Notes: generated by a model not told the origin, from the letters alone. Numbered from the stretch's first letter, positions 1-59,115 are shown. The stretch is 59,115 bases of DNA from Candidatus Treponema merdequi (GCA_018064525.1 JAGHVB010000016.1:1-59115); one strand, 5' to 3'. Numbers and translations: made by a program.

Positions 1-2
1 AT

Positions 3-965
3 ATAAATGATGATGGTATATATGAAAATTTCTTGATGGATATTAAATATAATAATGAAATTATTTATATGTTATCCACTGACTTACAGGTTATCGATAC
101 AGAAAAGATTGTAGAAAATGAAAAAATGTTAAGATTAATTCCAGAATATTATTTAGAAGTTTTATGCAAAAAGAATACTGATTTAATTTTTGAAAAACAA
201 CCTTTATGGAACGAACGAAAAAAAAGAATGGAAAATGAACCTTTTCCGTTCGAAGAATCTTTTCAACCCGAAAGCTATTATATATCAAATACAGTAATAC
301 TTTTTAGTCAGCATAATTATTATCTGGTCAAGAACGTTAAGAAAAAAAATAATAATATAGAACTCGATTTACTTCACTATTCTGATGATGATGTAACTGA
401 TTATTTTGGAAAAACAGAAGATGTTTTTTCGGAGGTATATAATACATTTCGAAGCAATTCAAATATTAAGCTTTTGATTCAAACTGATGGAGATTATTTT
501 GATCTTTGGATCAATACAAAAGAAAATTATATTGGAAAGTACATTGCAGCATCGGAATCACTATGTGAACAAATTGTAAATCTGGTTAGAAGTAACAAAT
601 GTGACCTTTCAAAAGTCACGTGGCCCCGCCATGCTGATGGCTCATGCGACTACGACAGAAGTAAAAAAACAACTGCAGCTCAAACCGTAAAACCAACATC
701 AACTACAAACGTCACCAAAAATAAAATCATGCTCGTTAACGAAAACCTAAAACTCCGTTCCAGCGAAGCCACTTCAACCCAAGTCCTAACCGTAATGATT
801 GCCGGCACAAAAGTAAAAATCCTCGAACTCGGCAAAGCGGAAACTATCGATGGCATCAACAGCAACTGGGTAAAAGTTGAAGTACAGCCTGGAGCTAAAG
901 ATAAGGACGGAAAAAGCATAAAAAAGGGAACCGTAGGCTGGTGCTACGGCGGATATTTGAAGTAG
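3..965 (+). CDS. SH3-domain protein, 5' end outside window
   Basis: The reading frame is open to the left edge, so the true start lies upstream; the internal TTG at 33 is not a convincing start. The N-terminal ~200 residues match no family I recognise. The last ~75 residues form a bacterial SH3-type domain (KLRSSEATSTQVLTVM, then VKILELG and GWCYGGYLK), a class usually linked to cell-wall or ligand binding. A linker with WPRHADGSCDYD precedes it. Base use changes near position 600, from very AT-rich to richer in C-ending codons, as if the C-terminal cassette had a different history. Any signal peptide would be outside the window. Domain call fairly sure; function unknown. Confidence 0.75.
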   Translation: MNDDGIYENFLMDIKYNNEIIYMLSTDLQVIDTEKIVENEKMLRLIPEYYLEVLCKKNTDLIFEKQPLWNERKKRMENEPFPFEESFQPESYYISNTVILFSQHNYYLVKNVKKKNNNIELDLLHYSDDDVTDYFGKTEDVFSEVYNTFRSNSNIKLLIQTDGDYFDLWINTKENYIGKYIAASESLCEQIVNLVRSNKCDLSKVTWPRHADGSCDYDRSKKTTAAQTVKPTSTTNVTKNKIMLVNENLKLRSSEATSTQVLTVMIAGTKVKILELGKAETIDGINSNWVKVEVQPGAKDKDGKSIKKGTVGWCYGGYLK

Positions 966-1174
966 AATAAAGTGGAATATTCCAGAAAGCAAGTCAAGCT
1001 TGCTTTCTGAAATTAAATAGAACTTTAGGGCTTTGACGAAGAAGCGGTAGTATGCGACTTTACGCCGCTTGAAAAATAAATAATAATAGAAGTATAACTT
1101 CGAATAAGGTACAGAATAATTCTTAAAGAAAAAAAAGAATTAAGAAAGCTTATTTAGTATAAGAAATATATTTG
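966..1174. other. Intergenic stretch with perfect hairpin
   Basis: No gene is recognised between the SH3 gene and the first attC site. A perfect 11-bp inverted repeat (983-993 with 999-1009, loop TCAAG) sits 17 bases after the stop codon. It lacks a T-run, so it is at most a weak terminator or RNA-stabilising hairpin. At 1029-1079 a short stretch reads GFDEEAVVCDFTPLEK then stop, with GC-richer codons than its surroundings. It could be the 3' scrap of a lost gene, but 16 codons is too little to identify it. Confidence 0.4.
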
Positions 1175-1238
1175 CCATAACAATGTTTTCAAAGCCGACA
1201 CGCAGTCGAGCTGCGTGCGATTTAAAACAATGTTATGT
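1175..1238 (+). repeat. attC recombination site 1 (integron cassette)
   Basis: The outer simple sites are CCATAAC (1175-1181) and GTTATGT (1232-1238), complementary at six of seven positions. Inside them AATGTTTTCAAA faces TTTAAAACAAT as the inner L-type arms. The centre folds as CACGCAG-TCGAG-CTGCGTG. This R''-L''-stem-L'-R' layout is the hallmark of integron attC sites, which IntI recombines as a folded bottom strand, cutting after the G of GTT. Just beyond, CGCCC (1242-1246) pairs with GGGCG (1253-1257). Two similar sites downstream support the call. Confidence 0.75.
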
Positions 1239-1331
1239 GGACGCCCGCACTGGGGCGCTTAAAAGAAGAGAAAATTTGGCGAGCTACATAGTAAGAAGTG
1301 ATTGTTAATAAGGTTCAAAAGGAGCGATAAA

Positions 1332-2099
1332 ATGCAAAACGAAAAAACGATGATTTTTGAAGGCCTTAAAGTTTATGATAACGGCTGGCCGTGGAACTGT
1401 GATGTTATGACTTCAAGTGAGGCTGTAAACGAGAGAATCAGCTTTGCGAAAGAACTTATTAAAGAGTACAAAAAATACAAGAACCTGATTAAATTTGAAT
1501 CAGTCAATGAGTCTCCAGCCCATTTCTCGGATTTTCTTAGCCTTGATTTATTTCCCAAAAATGATTTTGGTCAGTTACTGGCAATAGAAAATTATCCTGA
1601 AATCTCATCGCACGACAGGTGCGCGGGACCAGACCATCCCAGTCTTTACAACATTCACATCTGGAAAGAAATCGGCTCAGAAAGCTATAATATCCAGATT
1701 CCAACAAGACCGTGCGGGCCTGAAGACATAGAGCAGAACCGAGCTTTCGGGGACTGGCTTCGGGACTTTTGCGATAAAAACGGAAAAAACATCTGGTTCG
1801 GTCGCTATCAGATCAATGACAAGGAAAGCCTGAATACAATCCTTGAAAAAGTTCATTCTTCAATAAAGGTGGAAAAGTTCGGATTTCTTTATAGAGTCAT
1901 TCTGAAAAAATCTGATTTCGGAGTCTTCACCGAAACTATGTTGAATCTCGAAAATGTTCCCGAATCCGGGCAAAATCTTTTTAAAAATCATGATTCGTCA
2001 TTGAATTACAATTTTTATTCATTTTTGAATCAGCAGCATATTTTCATAGAAAATCGACGCGAAGATTATGTCTGTGTTGATTTTATAGAAGAACAATGA
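1332..2099 (+). CDS. Cassette-encoded hypothetical protein
   Basis: A 255-residue protein of unknown function. I chose the ATG at 1332 (MQNEKTMIFEG) because AAGGAG lies 7 bases upstream; a frame-extending start at 1302 has no ribosome site. There is no signal peptide or membrane segment, so it is probably cytosolic. It is rich in aromatic and charged residues, including a central segment with DRCAGPDHPSLYN and RPCGPEDIEQNRAFGDWLRDF. It is the first gene of the cassette between attC1 and attC2, about 95 bases after the recombination point, the usual position and orientation for a cassette gene. I recognise no family. Confidence 0.65.
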   Translation: MQNEKTMIFEGLKVYDNGWPWNCDVMTSSEAVNERISFAKELIKEYKKYKNLIKFESVNESPAHFSDFLSLDLFPKNDFGQLLAIENYPEISSHDRCAGPDHPSLYNIHIWKEIGSESYNIQIPTRPCGPEDIEQNRAFGDWLRDFCDKNGKNIWFGRYQINDKESLNTILEKVHSSIKVEKFGFLYRVILKKSDFGVFTETMLNLENVPESGQNLFKNHDSSLNYNFYSFLNQQHIFIENRREDYVCVDFIEEQ

Positions 2100-2265
2100 A
2101 AGAAAAATTGGCAAAATTTTTTACAATTATAAACTCAATTTTCACAATGATTTTTTTTGATACTGGCAGTTTTATCTTTTTCTATTGGAAAAGGTAAAAT
2201 ACGCCTTTGTAACTTGATTTGTATCCGCAAATTGAATTTACGTTTACGATTAAAGGAGGTCTGAT

Positions 2266-2553
2266 ATGGATTATGTTTTTGTAAAAGATTCGGAAGGCTA
2301 TGTTTTCAAGAAATTAGAATCAGAAATTTCTCCTGACGAAAAAATCATTTCTGAAAAAGAGTACATGAAAGTATCTGGCCTTACTTCTTATGAAAACAAA
2401 TTCGGACATGGTGGAGCAAGAGAAAATGCCGAAAGAAAACAAAAATTTGGTTCACCATTAAAATTTCAGATTCGCGTAACAAAAGAAGAAAAAGAATTCC
2501 TTGCGTATGCACGCGAACATAATATAAATTATTCTGCACTGATGCAGATGTAA
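2266..2553 (+). CDS. Small ribbon-helix-helix-like protein
   Basis: A 95-residue protein with a near-perfect ribosome site (AAAGGAGG) 7 bases before the ATG. The C-terminal third (PLKFQIRVTKEEKEFLAYAR, then a helix ending NYSALMQM) resembles a ribbon-helix-helix fold: one beta strand followed by two helices. Such proteins are often antitoxins or small repressors. The N-terminus is acidic with a GHGGAREN linker. The stop codon falls four bases before attC2, so the gene ends at the cassette boundary and the second helix may be cut short. No toxin partner is obvious; the preceding gene is 166 bases upstream. The RHH assignment is inference from pattern. Confidence 0.6.
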   Translation: MDYVFVKDSEGYVFKKLESEISPDEKIISEKEYMKVSGLTSYENKFGHGGARENAERKQKFGSPLKFQIRVTKEEKEFLAYAREHNINYSALMQM

Positions 2554-2557
2554 AATC

Positions 2558-2620
2558 ACATAACAAAGGTTCGTAGTCGACAGCGATTCAAGCCCGCTGC
2601 GGTACAACCAGTTGTTATGG
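2558..2620 (+). repeat. attC recombination site 2 (integron cassette)
   Basis: The outer boxes are ACATAAC (2558-2564) and GTTATGG (2614-2620). Inner arms AAAGGTT and AACCAGTT are complementary with a small offset. The centre holds CAGCG...CGCTG. Length 63 bp matches attC1. Immediately after it CAGGCC (2624-2629) pairs perfectly with GGCCTG (2633-2638), the same kind of GC-rich hairpin as at the other two junctions. Confidence 0.72.
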
Positions 2621-2655
2621 CGACAGGCCGCTGGCCTGCTTTTTAGGATTAAAAA

Positions 2656-2772
2656 ATGGAATTTAATGCATTAATACCAGAATTAAGTGTTTCTGATATA
2701 AATAGTAACTGGTCTGGATGTAAAAATACTTTAAGCAACTTTCGTTGCTTGATAATTAAATTTATAAATTAA
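2656..2772 (+). pseudogene. 5' remnant of a VOC/glyoxalase-family gene
   Basis: A 38-codon frame begins MEFNALIPELSVSDIN, the typical opening of small vicinal-oxygen-chelate (glyoxalase/bleomycin-resistance) proteins, which continue with a motif like KSLDFY. Here homology stops abruptly after about 16 residues (next NSNWSGCKN) and the frame ends at 2772. An AGGA element lies a few bases upstream, so the scrap may still be translated. A perfect 7-bp hairpin (AAGCAAC 2733-2739 / GTTGCTT 2744-2750) lies within it. This looks like a gene start left by deletion or cassette recombination directly after attC2. The family call rests on memory of the N-terminal motif. Confidence 0.5.
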
Positions 2773-2790
2773 ATATCTTGGCAGGAAAAT

Positions 2791-3393
2791 ATGAAAAGAA
2801 AAGTTATTTTAATTTTTTTATTAGCATTTAATTTTAGTTTATTTGCTCAAGATTTTATTTTCCCACCAGAATTAAAATGGTGGCTGGATGAAATTCAAAA
2901 GATTGATAAAAATATCAGTCTGGAAAAATTCGAATTTTTTGATGAATGTTTTATTTATGAAGAAGATGGACCTGTTTCATTTAAGAATAAATTGTATCCA
3001 GTTTTAAAAAAATGGAATTACTTTGGTGATATGTTTGCTTGTTATCCAGTAATATGTTCATTGAAAAAGAATAGAAATGGAAAATATTCGTTTGAAGGTG
3101 AAGATCCTGATACTGAGTTTGGAATCTTTGATAGAAATGAAAAACTTTTGTTTGTAGATTTCTACGGAAGTTCCTGCTGCCTTGATTCATTTTGCTGGGT
3201 AAGGGATAATCGGCTTACTGTAGTTGGTGAAGGCTGGGGAAAAGAATCTGATGAATATTATTTTTCCATTTATGATTATTTTATAAAAGATGGAAGGTGT
3301 ATTGTCAGAGAATATGTTTATAAAGTAAAAAATCCTGATTTGTCAAAGTCAAAATTGAGATGGCATGAACAACGAAGTGATTATTTTGAATAA
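2791..3393 (+). CDS. Secreted hypothetical protein (cassette gene)
   Basis: A 200-residue protein starting with a clear Sec signal peptide (MKRKVILIFLLAFNFSLFAQ), probably cleaved after FAQ and periplasmic. There is no lipobox cysteine. The mature part is rich in aromatic and acidic residues and has a CC pair (GSSCCLDSFCW). It ends in a charged segment. I recognise no family. AGGA lies a few bases before the ATG. The gene fills the cassette between attC2 and attC3 in the same direction as the neighbouring cassette genes. Confidence 0.65.
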   Translation: MKRKVILIFLLAFNFSLFAQDFIFPPELKWWLDEIQKIDKNISLEKFEFFDECFIYEEDGPVSFKNKLYPVLKKWNYFGDMFACYPVICSLKKNRNGKYSFEGEDPDTEFGIFDRNEKLLFVDFYGSSCCLDSFCWVRDNRLTVVGEGWGKESDEYYFSIYDYFIKDGRCIVREYVYKVKNPDLSKSKLRWHEQRSDYFE

Positions 3394-3438
3394 TTTAAAA
3401 TTGGTTGATAAAACATGGAATTTAACTGTAAAATGAAT

Positions 3439-3580
3439 GTATAACACAGTTTTCAAAGCCAGCTAGGGGACAAGCACATTGTGTTTTAAGAAAATACACG
3501 AATGCATGAAAAACCAGATTTAAAATCAAAAACTATTGATGGGGTTACTTTAAATAAGTAATTTTTAAACTATGTTATGT
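3439..3580 (+). repeat. attC recombination site 3 (integron cassette)
   Basis: The outer boxes are GTATAAC (3439-3445) and GTTATGT (3574-3580). Inner arms CAGTTTTCAAA and TTTTTAAACTA are complementary. At 142 bp it is more than twice as long as the other two sites because the variable central stem is larger and contains its own imperfect hairpin near 3481-3499. Right after it TGCCCG (3585-3590) pairs perfectly with CGGGCA (3592-3597) around one G. Great variation in attC length is normal for integrons. Confidence 0.68.
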
Positions 3581-3610
3581 GTAATGCCCGGCGGGCAACG
3601 GAGGAAAAAA

Positions 3611-4345
3611 ATGAAAAAAACAGTTTTAGGTTTACTATTTGTTGTAATATCAACATTTGGTTATTCACAGTCAAAGTTTAATGAAAATGATTTTGTAAAT
3701 GCAATTAATGAAGTTGTAGGTTTTAAGAAACAGCATCTTGCAAAAGATTTTATATGGAAAAAAGGAAGAAGCTCAGCTTTAGTTGAAAAGTCAGAACCTG
3801 TAAATAAATATGAAATTTCAAACTTGCATGATGAAAATTGCTGTACATCATGGGTTGAAGGAAAATCTGATGATGGTATTGGTGAATGGGTTGTTATTCC
3901 TGTTGAAAACTGGGACGAAAATTTAAATTATGTTTATGAATATTCGCACAATAACATCAAGCAGTTTAATGTTGTATTAGAAGTGTGGAATGGCTATCAG
4001 GAAACATTAGATTTATATAAAAAGAATAACAGGGTAAAAGACGCAAAAATTACGATTTATGCAGTTCCATTCTGTACAAGCATGGAAGGAGTAAGTGAAC
4101 TTGAAGCAAATCCTGAAGTTGTACATGAAGAAACTGTTCAGTTTTCAGACGAAATTTTTGATACTCCAATATATTTAAACAGTTCTACTCATAAGTTCAG
4201 TTTTACTTTACCAGAAAAATATAAAACTCAATATTATGAATATGAATTTTATATCAAAGTCGAAATAATGTCTGTTTACAAAGGAACAAAATACAATGAC
4301 ACCTGTATTTCAGAAATGAATGCAAAACTTGTAAAATCGTTCTAA
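3611..4345 (+). CDS. Secreted NADase-type glycan-binding-like protein
   Basis: A 244-residue protein. ATG 3611 is chosen because GGAGG lies 6 bases upstream and it opens a signal peptide (MKKTVLGLLFVVISTFGYSQ). The mature part holds a discoidin-like beta-sandwich: CCTSWVEGKSDDGIGEW, NGYQETLDLYKKNNRVKDAK and a final VYKGTKYNDTCISEMNAKL. The same landmarks occur in the protein at 9761-10720. I associate this pattern with the NADase-type glycan-binding domain of spirochaete surface proteins; ligand unknown. The gene begins 37 bases after the attC3 junction and has no recognisable attC after it, so it may be the last cassette of the array. Confidence 0.65.
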   Translation: MKKTVLGLLFVVISTFGYSQSKFNENDFVNAINEVVGFKKQHLAKDFIWKKGRSSALVEKSEPVNKYEISNLHDENCCTSWVEGKSDDGIGEWVVIPVENWDENLNYVYEYSHNNIKQFNVVLEVWNGYQETLDLYKKNNRVKDAKITIYAVPFCTSMEGVSELEANPEVVHEETVQFSDEIFDTPIYLNSSTHKFSFTLPEKYKTQYYEYEFYIKVEIMSVYKGTKYNDTCISEMNAKLVKSF

Positions 4346-4432
4346 GAAAAAAACAATTTCAAAGAGTTGCAGTTATTCATATGATTGGCAAACTGAATTG
4401 CGAAAGCCAGCATTGAATTATTCAAAAAAAAA

Positions 4433-4461
4433 TGGAAATTTATGCTAAAACTGGCTATATT
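4433..4461 (+). promoter_or_regulatory. Promoter of cyclase-like gene (leaderless)
   Basis: TGGAAA (4433-4438), a 17-base spacer and TATATT (4456-4461), with the ATG only 6 bases later. No Shine-Dalgarno sequence is present. The -35 box matches consensus at four of six positions. Confidence 0.45.
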
Positions 4462-4467
4462 ATTAAT

Positions 4468-5166
4468 ATGCTTGATTTTAAAAAAATAAAGGCTGATATT
4501 AGGGCCGTTCATAATGATGAAATAATTCAACCGATGTCCATTACTACAAAAATTCCTGCCGAAAAAAAACTGATAATTCTGATTGATATTGTCGGGTTTT
4601 CAAAAGGAACTACAAAAGAACAGGTTTATAAAATTTACTGTTTTGAACATTATGTTATAAAAAATGTTCTGTCGAATCGGCATCGTTTTTCAAAGAGGAT
4701 TAAGATTAGTCAGTTTATTCCAACTGGAGACGGCTGTTATATTGTTGCCGATGAATGTGAGCCGTGTCTTGCTTTGGAGTTTATTATTACTTTGATAAAA
4801 AATTTTCAGTATATAAAAAATGATGATAAAGAGCCGTGGGCGTTGAGGGCTTCGGCGATTTTTGGCGAATGTGTGCCTTTTCTGGATCTTGCGCGCCACA
4901 AAAATTATATCGGTGAAGGAATGAATGAAGCGGCCAGAATTTTAAGTTACGGTCAGTCTGCTTTGGAAAAACAGTTTCTTAAAGATAATCCGGATGCAAA
5001 TGAAAATGATGCAAAAAATTTTTCAACAAACAGTTTATTTACAGATGAAAGTCTTGCCTCAGAACTTATAAATTATGGCGATGGAAGAAATATTCATAGA
5101 CTTATTCAGGTTGCCGACAAACACAGAAAGTGCCGCGATATTACGGTTTATCAGGGATTAAAATAA
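4468..5166 (+). CDS. Class III nucleotidyl-cyclase-like protein
   Basis: A 232-residue protein resembling a stand-alone catalytic domain of class III adenylate/guanylate cyclases. IILIDIVGFSKG carries the first metal-binding aspartate. IPTGDGCYIV matches the second (GDG hairpin), and YIGEGMNEAARIL matches the conserved segment with the ribose-orienting asparagine. There is no transmembrane or sensor domain. ATG 4468 is preferred over 4432 because a -10 box lies 6 bases before it and neither site has an SD. It could make cAMP, cGMP or a pyrimidine cyclic nucleotide; the substrate cannot be read from sequence, and no effector gene is adjacent. It lies just beyond the cassette array. Confidence 0.65.
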   Translation: MLDFKKIKADIRAVHNDEIIQPMSITTKIPAEKKLIILIDIVGFSKGTTKEQVYKIYCFEHYVIKNVLSNRHRFSKRIKISQFIPTGDGCYIVADECEPCLALEFIITLIKNFQYIKNDDKEPWALRASAIFGECVPFLDLARHKNYIGEGMNEAARILSYGQSALEKQFLKDNPDANENDAKNFSTNSLFTDESLASELINYGDGRNIHRLIQVADKHRKCRDITVYQGLK

Positions 5167-9748: not shown

Positions 9749-9760
9749 GTGGAGTATTAT

Positions 9761-10720
9761 ATGAAAAAAGTATTAGTTTTATTTTTAATAACAATGATTT
9801 CAATTGTAACAGTCTTTTCACAGAAAATTGACTTAGATTGTGAAGAAGATGATGAATTCGGATATATCACATTGATACCAGATACTGTTTCTGTAAGTTC
9901 AACTTTAAAAGAAAAATCAAAAACTGCAGATTTTTATGGAGCAGATAATCTTTATGATGGGACATGGAAATCATGGTCTGAAGGCGAAAACGGTGATGGC
10001 ATTAATTCTAAAATAACATATAAATATAATTCAAAACATCATCTGAAGTTTTTAATGATCAGAAACGGTTATGGTGAATTAAAAAGTTACTATAAAAATA
10101 ACCGTGTAAAAGATCTGAAAATTACAGATGGAAAAAAAGAAATTTTATATACTCTTAGAGATACATATCTGCCTCAATTCATTCAACTTGATTTTTCAGA
10201 ATGTGACAAAGTTACTTTTGAAATCCTTTCAGTTTATAAAGGTACAGATTATAATGATACCTGTATTTCTGAACTTCGCTTAATGAATTATCCTGATGAC
10301 AATACATTTAATTTTGAACCGGATGATTACACAAAACATGCTATGGATTTAATTCCGAATTTTACTCAGTTTAAGTGTAACTACGGTGAATATAAATACA
10401 AACTTATAAACGGATTTAAAGAAAGTCAAATAGTTCTGTTATATAATAAAAATGGCAAAATGCTTTTAATTTCAGAAGAAAAGCAGAATAACAAAAACGT
10501 TATATCATATAAAGAATTTAACGGAACTGAATGGATCAACAGTAATGATAAGACTTTTGATTATTTAAAATCATTAAAAGTTACATCTGTTTTTACTCAT
10601 CCAATTGACGAATATCCGTATAAAACAGATTTCTTTATAAAAAATAAGTCAGGAATTAAATGTTTTGTTTTAACACCGGATGGATTTGAAGAAGTCTTTG
10701 ATTATGTTTCAGGAATGTAA
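9761..10720 (+). CDS. Secreted NADase-type glycan-binding-like protein
   Basis: A 319-residue protein. ATG 9761 is chosen because GGAG lies 6 bases upstream and it opens a signal peptide (MKKVLVLFLITMISIVTVFS); an in-frame GTG at 9749 would precede the ribosome site. Residues about 45-175 form a discoidin-like sandwich (DNLYDGTWKSWSEGENGDGI, NNRVKDLKIT, SVYKGTDYNDTCISELRL), the same domain as in the cassette protein at 3611-4345. A ~140-residue C-terminal domain of unknown function follows. It was probably annotated in relatives as glycan-binding; I infer surface or periplasmic location only. Confidence 0.7.
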   Translation: MKKVLVLFLITMISIVTVFSQKIDLDCEEDDEFGYITLIPDTVSVSSTLKEKSKTADFYGADNLYDGTWKSWSEGENGDGINSKITYKYNSKHHLKFLMIRNGYGELKSYYKNNRVKDLKITDGKKEILYTLRDTYLPQFIQLDFSECDKVTFEILSVYKGTDYNDTCISELRLMNYPDDNTFNFEPDDYTKHAMDLIPNFTQFKCNYGEYKYKLINGFKESQIVLLYNKNGKMLLISEEKQNNKNVISYKEFNGTEWINSNDKTFDYLKSLKVTSVFTHPIDEYPYKTDFFIKNKSGIKCFVLTPDGFEEVFDYVSGM

Positions 10721-56898: not shown

Positions 56899-59115
56899 TA
56901 AGCAAAGCTCTTATTTTAAAAGATTTTAAGTCTCACACTTTAAGCTATATTCTGTGTTCTCTTTTTTTATTTTTAACGTCGAGTTTTCAGTTTTTTATAT
57001 TTAACCGTTTTTTTATATTCGGATATGGAACTACAAATCTATCAAATTTCTTTTCAACAATTCCATATATCTTTTGTCTTATAATTCCTGTAATCGTATT
57101 ATTAAACAGTAATTCCGACGTAGAAAATATTTTTCCGTTTTCACAGACTTCAATTATTCTTTCCAAACTTATTTCACATTCTTTGATTTTATTTGCAATG
57201 ATAATTCCACTTGCAGCAATTCCTGTTACAGTCAGTTTTTTTGGTGATGTGGAAGCTGTAAATGTAGTAACAGGTTTTATGGGAATTTTCCTGTATGAAG
57301 TTCTTGCAGTAAGCCTTTGTCTTTTTGTAAACGAAATTATATCATTAAAACCTCTTTTCTTAGTTGTTTCAGTTTTAATTTTGATTGCGATTAATTCAAT
57401 TCAGATCATACCTCTATACATAAACTGTAATTCCTTTTTTACAGGACTTTTTAACAACTTAAGTTTTATATGGCATTTTGATTCTTTTTCAAAAGGAATA
57501 CTTGATACGAGAGATTTGATATTCTTTATACTTTCATCTATGCTTTTACTTCTTCTGGCGGTTTGTATAAATGAAATAAAAAAAGAAAGAAACTTTTTTT
57601 CAAAAGATTTAAAAATTTATTCAATTCTTGTCATTTGTATTTTTCTTTTTGCGTTCATCGACAACTCAAGACTATATCTGAGACTTGATTTTACAAAAGA
57701 TAAACAGTTTTCAGTATCAAAATATACAAGACAGACTTTAAGCATTGCATCTGATCCTGTAAGAATAACTTATTACCGTTCAAAAGAACTTGTCTCAAGG
57801 TATCCAGAAGTTCGAGATGTTTATGATTATTTAAAAATCTGTGCAAATGAAAATAAAAATATTTCACTTTCTGTTCTAGATGCCAATAAAAAAGAAAATG
57901 AAGAAATCTTAAAAAATCTTTCTGTAGCACCTCAGCAGATACAATCTATAAATGATAATAAAGCGGAATATATTAAAATTTATTCCGCTATTGTCATTGA
58001 ATATCAGGGTAAAAAAGAAGTAATTCCATTTGTACTTTCAACAGCTTCTTTGGAATTTGAACTTAACACAAGACTTGATGCTTTGATTAAAAATAAATTT
58101 TATTCTGCATATATTCTATGCGGAAATGAATATAACACAGATGACTGTCATTATCTTGAATTACTCTTAACAACTTCGAATATTCACTGTTATCCGGTTG
58201 AAAAAGAATCAATTACATATATTCAGGATCAGCTTCAGACAGACATTCCGTTGATTTTATTTGGAACAAGTTCATTGACACCGGAACAGTCATCAGTAAT
58301 AGAAAATTTTATTTTACGCGGTGGAAAGGCATTGATAATGACATCCCAGTATTCTGTTGATATCAACGGAAACTGGAAAATTTCAAAAAATGAAAATGAC
58401 AGTTTTATTCCTGTACTTGAAAAATGGGGTGTAAAATTTGAAAATAAAATTGTAAATGATCTTTCAAATATAAGGACAAGTTTTGTTTCATCTCAATCTG
58501 ATAAAACTTATGAAACTGAAAATCCTCAGTATGAATATATAAATTATCCTCAATGGATTTCTCTCTTGCCACAAAAAAATATTCCAAACGGACTTACACT
58601 TTTCTGGGCAAGTCCTGTAAAAGAAGACAGCAGGGTAATGCCATTATTTTATTCCTCTGATATGAGCTGGACTGTGAAAGAATTTGATTTTAAAACTTAT
58701 TCTCAAACTTCTGAACTTTTTATTTCAAATCCTTTTACTGTAGAAAAAGCTCCGATTTCAGATCCTCTTTTTACAAAAGAAGTTTCTACACTTGGAGTTC
58801 AATTAAAATCTCCGATAACAGGCTTATATAACTATGAAACAAATGAAAATCCGAAAATAATTATAATTCCATGTCAATATTTTGCATTTGACCTTCTTCT
58901 TGAACTTGCAGGAGGTGAAAACGGAGATTTCAGAAATCCTGATTTTATTCTTCAGAGTATTTTAAAACTTACAGATTCAGAGGAACTTTCTAAAATGCAG
59001 TATGGTGGAATTAAAAATATTTCACTTTATAAAATAACAGATCCTCAGAAATTTAATTTAAAATGTGCAGAAGTATTGCGTATAATTTTCTTTATTGCAA
59101 TTATTCATATTATAT
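56895..59115 (+). CDS. Fused GldF-GldG-like ABC permease, 3' end cut
   Basis: The frame opens at ATG 56895 behind AAGGAG and stays open to the right edge (740 codons). Residues about 1-235 hold some six membrane helices of an ABC-2 permease (GldF-like). After one more helix (ILVICIFLFAFIDN), a large extracytoplasmic GldG-like domain follows (DFTKDKQFSVSKYTRQTL, ARITYY-type strand, then LIKNKFYSAYILCGNEYNTD and RGGKALIMTSQYSVDI). The last residues (VLRIIFFIAIIHII) start the terminal helix, so little is missing. The ATPase partner is directly upstream. GldF and GldG are usually separate, so this is a fusion. Confidence 0.85.
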   Translation, partial: MISKALILKDFKSHTLSYILCSLFLFLTSSFQFFIFNRFFIFGYGTTNLSNFFSTIPYIFCLIIPVIVLLNSNSDVENIFPFSQTSIILSKLISHSLILFAMIIPLAAIPVTVSFFGDVEAVNVVTGFMGIFLYEVLAVSLCLFVNEIISLKPLFLVVSVLILIAINSIQIIPLYINCNSFFTGLFNNLSFIWHFDSFSKGILDTRDLIFFILSSMLLLLLAVCINEIKKERNFFSKDLKIYSILVICIFLFAFIDNSRLYLRLDFTKDKQFSVSKYTRQTLSIASDPVRITYYRSKELVSRYPEVRDVYDYLKICANENKNISLSVLDANKKENEEILKNLSVAPQQIQSINDNKAEYIKIYSAIVIEYQGKKEVIPFVLSTASLEFELNTRLDALIKNKFYSAYILCGNEYNTDDCHYLELLLTTSNIHCYPVEKESITYIQDQLQTDIPLILFGTSSLTPEQSSVIENFILRGGKALIMTSQYSVDINGNWKISKNENDSFIPVLEKWGVKFENKIVNDLSNIRTSFVSSQSDKTYETENPQYEYINYPQWISLLPQKNIPNGLTLFWASPVKEDSRVMPLFYSSDMSWTVKEFDFKTYSQTSELFISNPFTVEKAPISDPLFTKEVSTLGVQLKSPITGLYNYETNENPKIIIIPCQYFAFDLLLELAGGENGDFRNPDFILQSILKLTDSEELSKMQYGGIKNISLYKITDPQKFNLKCAEVLRIIFFIAIIHII

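Follow-up and report, generated by a model that had tools for sequence, protein, structure and literature searches.

Organization of the cassette array

The window studied here is a 59,115-nt stretch of DNA from Candidatus Treponema merdequi (GCA_018064525.1 JAGHVB010000016.1:1-59115), which is contig C70 of a 99.8% complete draft assembly. Its first 4345 nt carry five cassette genes, all on the + strand, and three palindromes resembling attC, the site that makes up an integron cassette together with a gene. We are highly confident that a sedentary chromosomal integron array of an intestinal Treponema has its distal end at positions 1-4345, and that the integrase gene intI has decayed to relics elsewhere in the genome. 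An initial annotation had already proposed a cassette array in a Treponema chromosome, with three attC-like palindromes and genes running in one direction, and the proposal is borne out by matches to an attC covariance model, by core genes on the contig and by intI-bearing Treponema relatives. The core genes nusA, infB, truB and secA (names read from the sequences) share the contig with the cassettes, which places the array on the chromosome.

The first cassette is cut by the contig end; its gene (3-965) encodes a protein with a C-terminal bacterial SH3 domain (PF08239, E 4e-8), and the 5' end lies beyond the contig. It is followed by attC site 1 (1176-1237, 62 nt, drawn in the cassette direction on the + strand, with the R'' box CATAAC and the R' box GTTATG) and by a cassette-start hairpin (1240-1258) composed of G, an unpaired A, CGCCC(GCACTG)GGGCG and C, a member of the family described below. 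Two genes come next: one of 255 aa (1332-2099), whose function is not assignable (Pfam and NCBIfam returned nothing significant, and the fetched loci held no relative), and an orphaned antitoxin-like gene of 95 aa (2266-2553) with a weak RelB-like C-terminus (E 0.012). Site 2 (2559-2619, 61 nt, CATAAC/GTTATG) and its hairpin (2622-2639; G, unpaired A, CAGGCC(GCT)GGCCTG, C) precede a 200-aa gene (2791-3393), which probably encodes a secreted protein, judging from its hydrophobic N-terminus, and has 55% identical relatives in the arrays of genomes G152 and G146 (L237, L229). Site 3 (3440-3579, 140 nt, TATAAC...GTTATG) is degenerate, with a canonical left arm and a weak right arm, and the third hairpin, TGCCC(GGC)GGGCA, lies 3' of its GTTATG (3585-3597). 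The last gene (3611-4345, 244 aa) encodes an NADase-type glycan-binding (F5/8 type C) domain (PF25302, E 3e-19; NF047619, E 1e-24); it has a cassette start and no recognisable attC behind it, marking the array end. A second protein related to it is encoded outside the array at 9749-10720.

Two candidate flanks were tried and rejected: the open reading frame (ORF) at 4432-5166, directly past the array, has a single good relative in the genus (G014, ~50%), and an empty-site or synteny test with the flanking chemoreceptor gene failed on relatives that are too distant (best 53%) and multi-copy.

attC sites in the genome and in the genus

A loose scan for boxes and arms gave many chance matches, so a covariance model (R1) was built from relatives. 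It was trained on five attCs adjoining the complete integrase genes of two other genomes (G001 and G025), and on other genomes only, because circularity was to be avoided. This model, a check of the kind suggested in the initial annotation, matched site 1 on the bottom strand (60.9 bits, E 2.1e-13) and also matched site 2 (61.9 bits, E 1.2e-13). In both sites the six-base outer boxes pair perfectly, the complementary inner arms leave a base unpaired and there is a stem in the centre; each site folds as a single long hairpin. Across the 59-kb window the best match beyond these two reached only E 0.07. The third palindrome fared less well, with only the boxes and the left arm retained; the 20 nt at its left end, ATAACACAGTTTTCAAAGCC, are identical to the left arms of intact attCs that this genome carries on C27 and C1. 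Intact attCs of ~130 nt occur in relatives, and lengths of 63 and 132 nt are given for T. succinifaciens by Wu, Doak and Ye (2013, PMC3607928).

Covariance-model attCs were detected in 29/36 genomes of the genus (this one included) and in 0/23 genomes from other families of the order, so the rarity of integrons assumed at first does not hold for this group. The genome itself contains about a dozen attCs: seven on the 9.7-kb contig C1, two on C27, two on C70, one on C24 and one on C86, the last of which matches the model on both strands. Here as in relatives, attCs sit at contig ends. The near-complete genome G001 also has single attCs far from its intI-linked array (C2:173277, 189584, 469925; C5:65118), which points to scattered cassettes.

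A further palindrome recurs at 975-1035, with the loop GTCAAGC as in the attC centre and a weak match to the attC model (E 0.07). Elements of this type were also seen on C1 and C24 (~4885-4830 and ~695-655; minus strand) and in the flanks of L179 and L247, several copies having AATTGAACTTTAGGGC or similar downstream.

Exchange of cassettes between genomes

Relatives of the 95-aa gene are 85-92% identical in G001, G028 and G030 and 76% identical in G033, whereas NusA of this genome is only 67-70% identical to that of G001, G028 and G030. The relatives are preceded by a Gp49/HigB-type toxin gene (PF05973); the window has no such toxin gene, and the gene that stands upstream there is an unrelated one. 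Site 2 has a close copy in G001 behind the same gene, and in the compared loci the exchange of genes falls exactly between attC sites. One gene with different neighbours, at an identity above that of NusA, indicates on sequence grounds that cassettes are shuffled between genomes, and the attCs of the window were presumably recombined by IntI. Other members of the array recur as well: a relative of the NADase-type glycan-binding gene adjoins an attC in G016, another is the first cassette on C27, and the SH3-domain gene family reappears in arrays of C1 and of relatives. A HigBA toxin-antitoxin pair and a DksA/TraR-type zinc-finger protein were noted as further cassette genes on C1 (L076:7851-8450) and C27 (L078:270-746).

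Cassettes also occur on Treponema plasmids. The T. bryantii plasmid pTB1 (NZ_AP025287.1, ~58100-58850) carries a RelE/ParE-type toxin gene with a partner of the 95-aa type, and pTS1 of T. saccharophilum (NZ_AP025289.1, ~352270-378340) contains about a dozen attCs. On C1, a SinI-type restriction endonuclease gene and a convergent cytosine methyltransferase gene were observed behind an attC (L076:26-2211); this defence cassette and part of its SH3-gene neighbour show 87% DNA identity to pTS1. No Treponema plasmid was among the best-listed matches for IntI, so the plasmid cassettes look integrase-less, and pTS1 and pTB1 are possible vehicles of cassette exchange.

Relics of the integrase gene

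The intact integrase that the initial annotation expected upstream of the window was found neither on the contig nor in the assembly, where no intI exceeds the TIGR02249 family cut-off. The four tyrosine recombinases of the genome are two of Xer type, one in an ftsZ-like/dprA-like and the other in a topA-like/hslVU-like context, and two of phage type. What was found are two relics. A search with the G001 integrase revealed a relic with an internal stop on C27, and a panel of 20 integrases placed it at 1978-2160 (L078, up to 58% identity) and a second one, with an internal deletion, on C24 at 2057-2257 (L077, up to 53% identity). Both fall within IntI residues about 195-275, and behind each, going in the direction of the cassettes, lie an attI-like GTTATG junction and cassettes; C24 and C27 are two decaying integron platforms in one genome. 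From the order of relic, junction and cassettes it follows that intI had run toward its cassettes. The same arrangement is seen in G001, with intI on the + strand and attCs in the + direction, and is known for Treponema (PMC3607928). Integrases above the cut-off were present in 22/59 genomes searched, including Treponema zioleckii, T. bryantii and rumen and faecal Treponema metagenome-assembled genomes.

These data are consistent with a history in which an IntI tyrosine recombinase would have inserted cassettes, each a gene with its attC, through the folded bottom strand of attC and in a single direction. The integrase gene would then have decayed to the two relics on other contigs, leaving the arrays behind. 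Most likely the window array is no longer mobile in cis, and the arrays of this genome are probably frozen, barring an integrase acting in trans, because intI survives only as the relics. We infer the past activity of IntI, the present immobility and the physical linkage of the contigs.

A hairpin at the start of the cassettes

All three attC boundaries of the window (3/3) are followed by a hairpin, as are the two attI-like junctions. The hairpin was analyzed at 245 distinct attC sites, picked by the attC model and not by the hairpin, with the limit on all statistics that related cassettes are not independent. It begins 3 nt past the R' box; its 15-16 nt are enclosed by one more base pair, and an A is left unpaired. 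At 208/245 sites a stem of 5-6 pairs in constant register started at +5, compared with a mean of 18 and a maximum of 26 in the shuffled control and with 26 in the same test 30 nt downstream; an A occupies +4 at 239/245 sites. At 195/208 sites (permuted 145, maximum 158), base +3 forms a pair with the first base beyond the stem, so that the A at +4 is left unpaired within the helix. As the sites with a stem were selected for pairing, the evidence rests mainly on compensatory changes and on the permutation: the stems differ, giving 75 distinct hairpins, but 426/432 and 562/580 cells in the two main registers are Watson-Crick, against 278 and 450 with permuted 3' arms.

The loops are chiefly ACT or GCACTG. 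Arrays of the denticola type (attC TCTAACACCCGC...) have, as read from the sequences, a shorter hairpin with TTC- or TAC-type loops in the same G-A-stem-C frame. A pattern of 27 bases that covers the most frequent form together with the box was found in 121/245 genomes of the family and 8/20 genera, while the reversed pattern gave no matches in the same search. The hairpin core alone gave 38 matches in six genomes, nearly all coinciding with box-plus-hairpin matches. Outside Spirochaetes the hairpin occurred at chance level (3/46 sites). A presence of the hairpin in clinical resistance cassettes was considered and rejected: the weak matches on Pseudomonas plasmids (E 7) lie behind blaVIM on the opposite strand and are put down to chance. 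In a subset of cassettes (L086:5805, L099:5169, L087:1236 and others), a second small hairpin of the CTTATCGTTGATAAG type and a conserved GTAAATC stand directly behind the first.

The hairpin marks where almost every cassette of this group begins at its 5' side. On the bottom strand it flanks the folded attC at most 4 bases from the crossover box, and its unpaired base resembles those in the attC arms. Its role is most likely in cassette recombination or formation.

Alternative explanations

Some results weigh against the interpretation given above. Site 3 is not matched by the covariance model. The assembly is a draft of 87 contigs, the array continues past the end of its contig, and a search for contig-end overlaps linking C70, C1, C24 and C27 found none, so an unassembled intact intI is possible. 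For the hairpin, the test for the strand under selection gave 14 A-C and 6 G-T stem mismatches (p 0.12); an early G-T excess (18 vs 4) was an artefact of scoring that favoured G-T and vanished with unbiased scoring. As to the outcomes that the initial annotation would have held against an integron, the contig indeed lacks intI, but attC matches exist and the cassettes vary among relatives in place of a fixed gene order.

The window cassettes could be a stray group that arose by off-target IntI insertion, an isolated cluster without an integrase, which we regard as rather unlikely. The single attCs of G001 and the missing overlaps between the contigs fit such an origin. However, the window group begins mid-gene at the contig end and therefore continues leftward, and C1, which consists mostly of cassettes, must attach somewhere.

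With the median start codon 38 nt past R' and the hairpin located between the two, an effect on translation is the obvious first idea: the hairpin might act at the RNA level in cassette expression, by protecting the start region from the variable attC upstream or by stabilising the mRNA. We consider this fairly unlikely. It would suit the reported interference of attC stems in mRNA with translation of the following cassette (Jacquier et al., reviewed in PMC8876359), and the spread of accessibility over attC contexts was slightly lower with the hairpin (0.019 vs 0.024-0.025, p 0.05-0.16). When 60 cassettes were folded in foreign attC contexts, however, the predicted accessibility of the start region was 0.462 with the native hairpin and 0.503 with the hairpin deleted, which leaves shielding of the ribosome-binding site unsupported. 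The hairpin is also kept in 48/61 cassettes without a near sense ORF, compared with 153/176 of the others, several failures being wrong-strand matches, and G-T mismatches are not in excess over A-C. Because accessibility is lower with the hairpin and cassettes lacking a near sense ORF still carry it, a role in DNA, that is in recombination, is favoured over one in translation. A relic of cassette formation and an RNA role missed by folding are further possibilities. We suggest tentatively, as a possibility just short of an even chance, that Treponemataceae cassettes are bipartite, the 5' hairpin being a second recombination or cassette-forming element besides attC, which may assist IntI in selecting or retaining the folded strand, or may record the making of the cassette.

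Returning to the array, it is unlikely that the integron is complete and active, with an intact intI in the unassembled part and the relics as older copies. Arrays do break assemblies, as the attCs at contig ends show, and complete intI genes are widespread in the genus, but a 99.8% complete assembly without intI above the cut-off and with two relic platforms already present argues against this reading. That the palindromes are dispersed repeats or terminators is extremely improbable, even though bacterial genomes often contain palindromic repeats and another one recurs here at 975-1035, given matches of ~1e-13, the link to intI in sister genomes, the absence from 23 other-family genomes and exchange exactly between sites; this reading is rejected for sites 1 and 2 and remains only for site 3.

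Relation to known integrons and implications

Integrons are known from T. denticola, T. vincentii, T. succinifaciens and T. brennaborense, and T. phagedenis has lost intI and retained attCs, according to Wu, Doak and Ye (2013, PMC3607928). The array shares with these the structure and length of attC, intI directed toward the cassettes, variable cassettes and attCs that outlast intI. Unlike those cases, this genome keeps two intI relics beside cassettes; the portion of the paper's main text that was covered makes no mention of a cassette-start hairpin. With at least two attCs on a contig without intI, the array also qualifies as a CALIN, a cluster of attC sites lacking an integron-integrase (IntegronFinder 2.0, PMC9024848), but differs from a plain one in being cut by the contig end at position 1, beyond which an integrase may be linked to it. 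Its attCs share the phylum-specific sequence and structure of the Spirochaetes type (Ghaly et al. 2021, PMC8352920); compared with the covariance model of that study, R1 was trained on five attCs from two genomes of Treponema. AttCs with R and L boxes and an IntI of the TIGR02249 family are features shared with class 1, cyanobacterial, proteobacterial and other integrons outside Spirochaetes, whereas the 46 sites from other phyla show no hairpin above chance.

Treponema arrays, including those without intI, were thus known already, and the cassette-start hairpin is what makes this array a variant. No description of it was found in the literature searched, which did not extend to Coleman et al. 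2004, reportedly the first account of the T. denticola integron.

With two decaying intI copies and persisting cassettes, the genome is one more example of integron loss as described by Wu et al. The hairpin may serve as a cassette-start signature for tracing cassettes to Treponema, which is relevant because six aminoglycoside acetyltransferase resistance cassettes have been assigned to Spirochaetes from attC alone (Ghaly et al., PMC8352920). T. bryantii, T. zioleckii and T. saccharophilum, which have cultured strains and yielded intI or arrays in this analysis, are suited to tests of the hairpin. The way in which a gene cassette first comes into being is an unanswered question for integron biology, and a covarying 5' structure on cassettes that have nothing else in common offers a direct handle on it. 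If our suggestion is true, cassettes of the Treponemataceae would be bipartite, unlike the textbook cassette of a gene plus attC.

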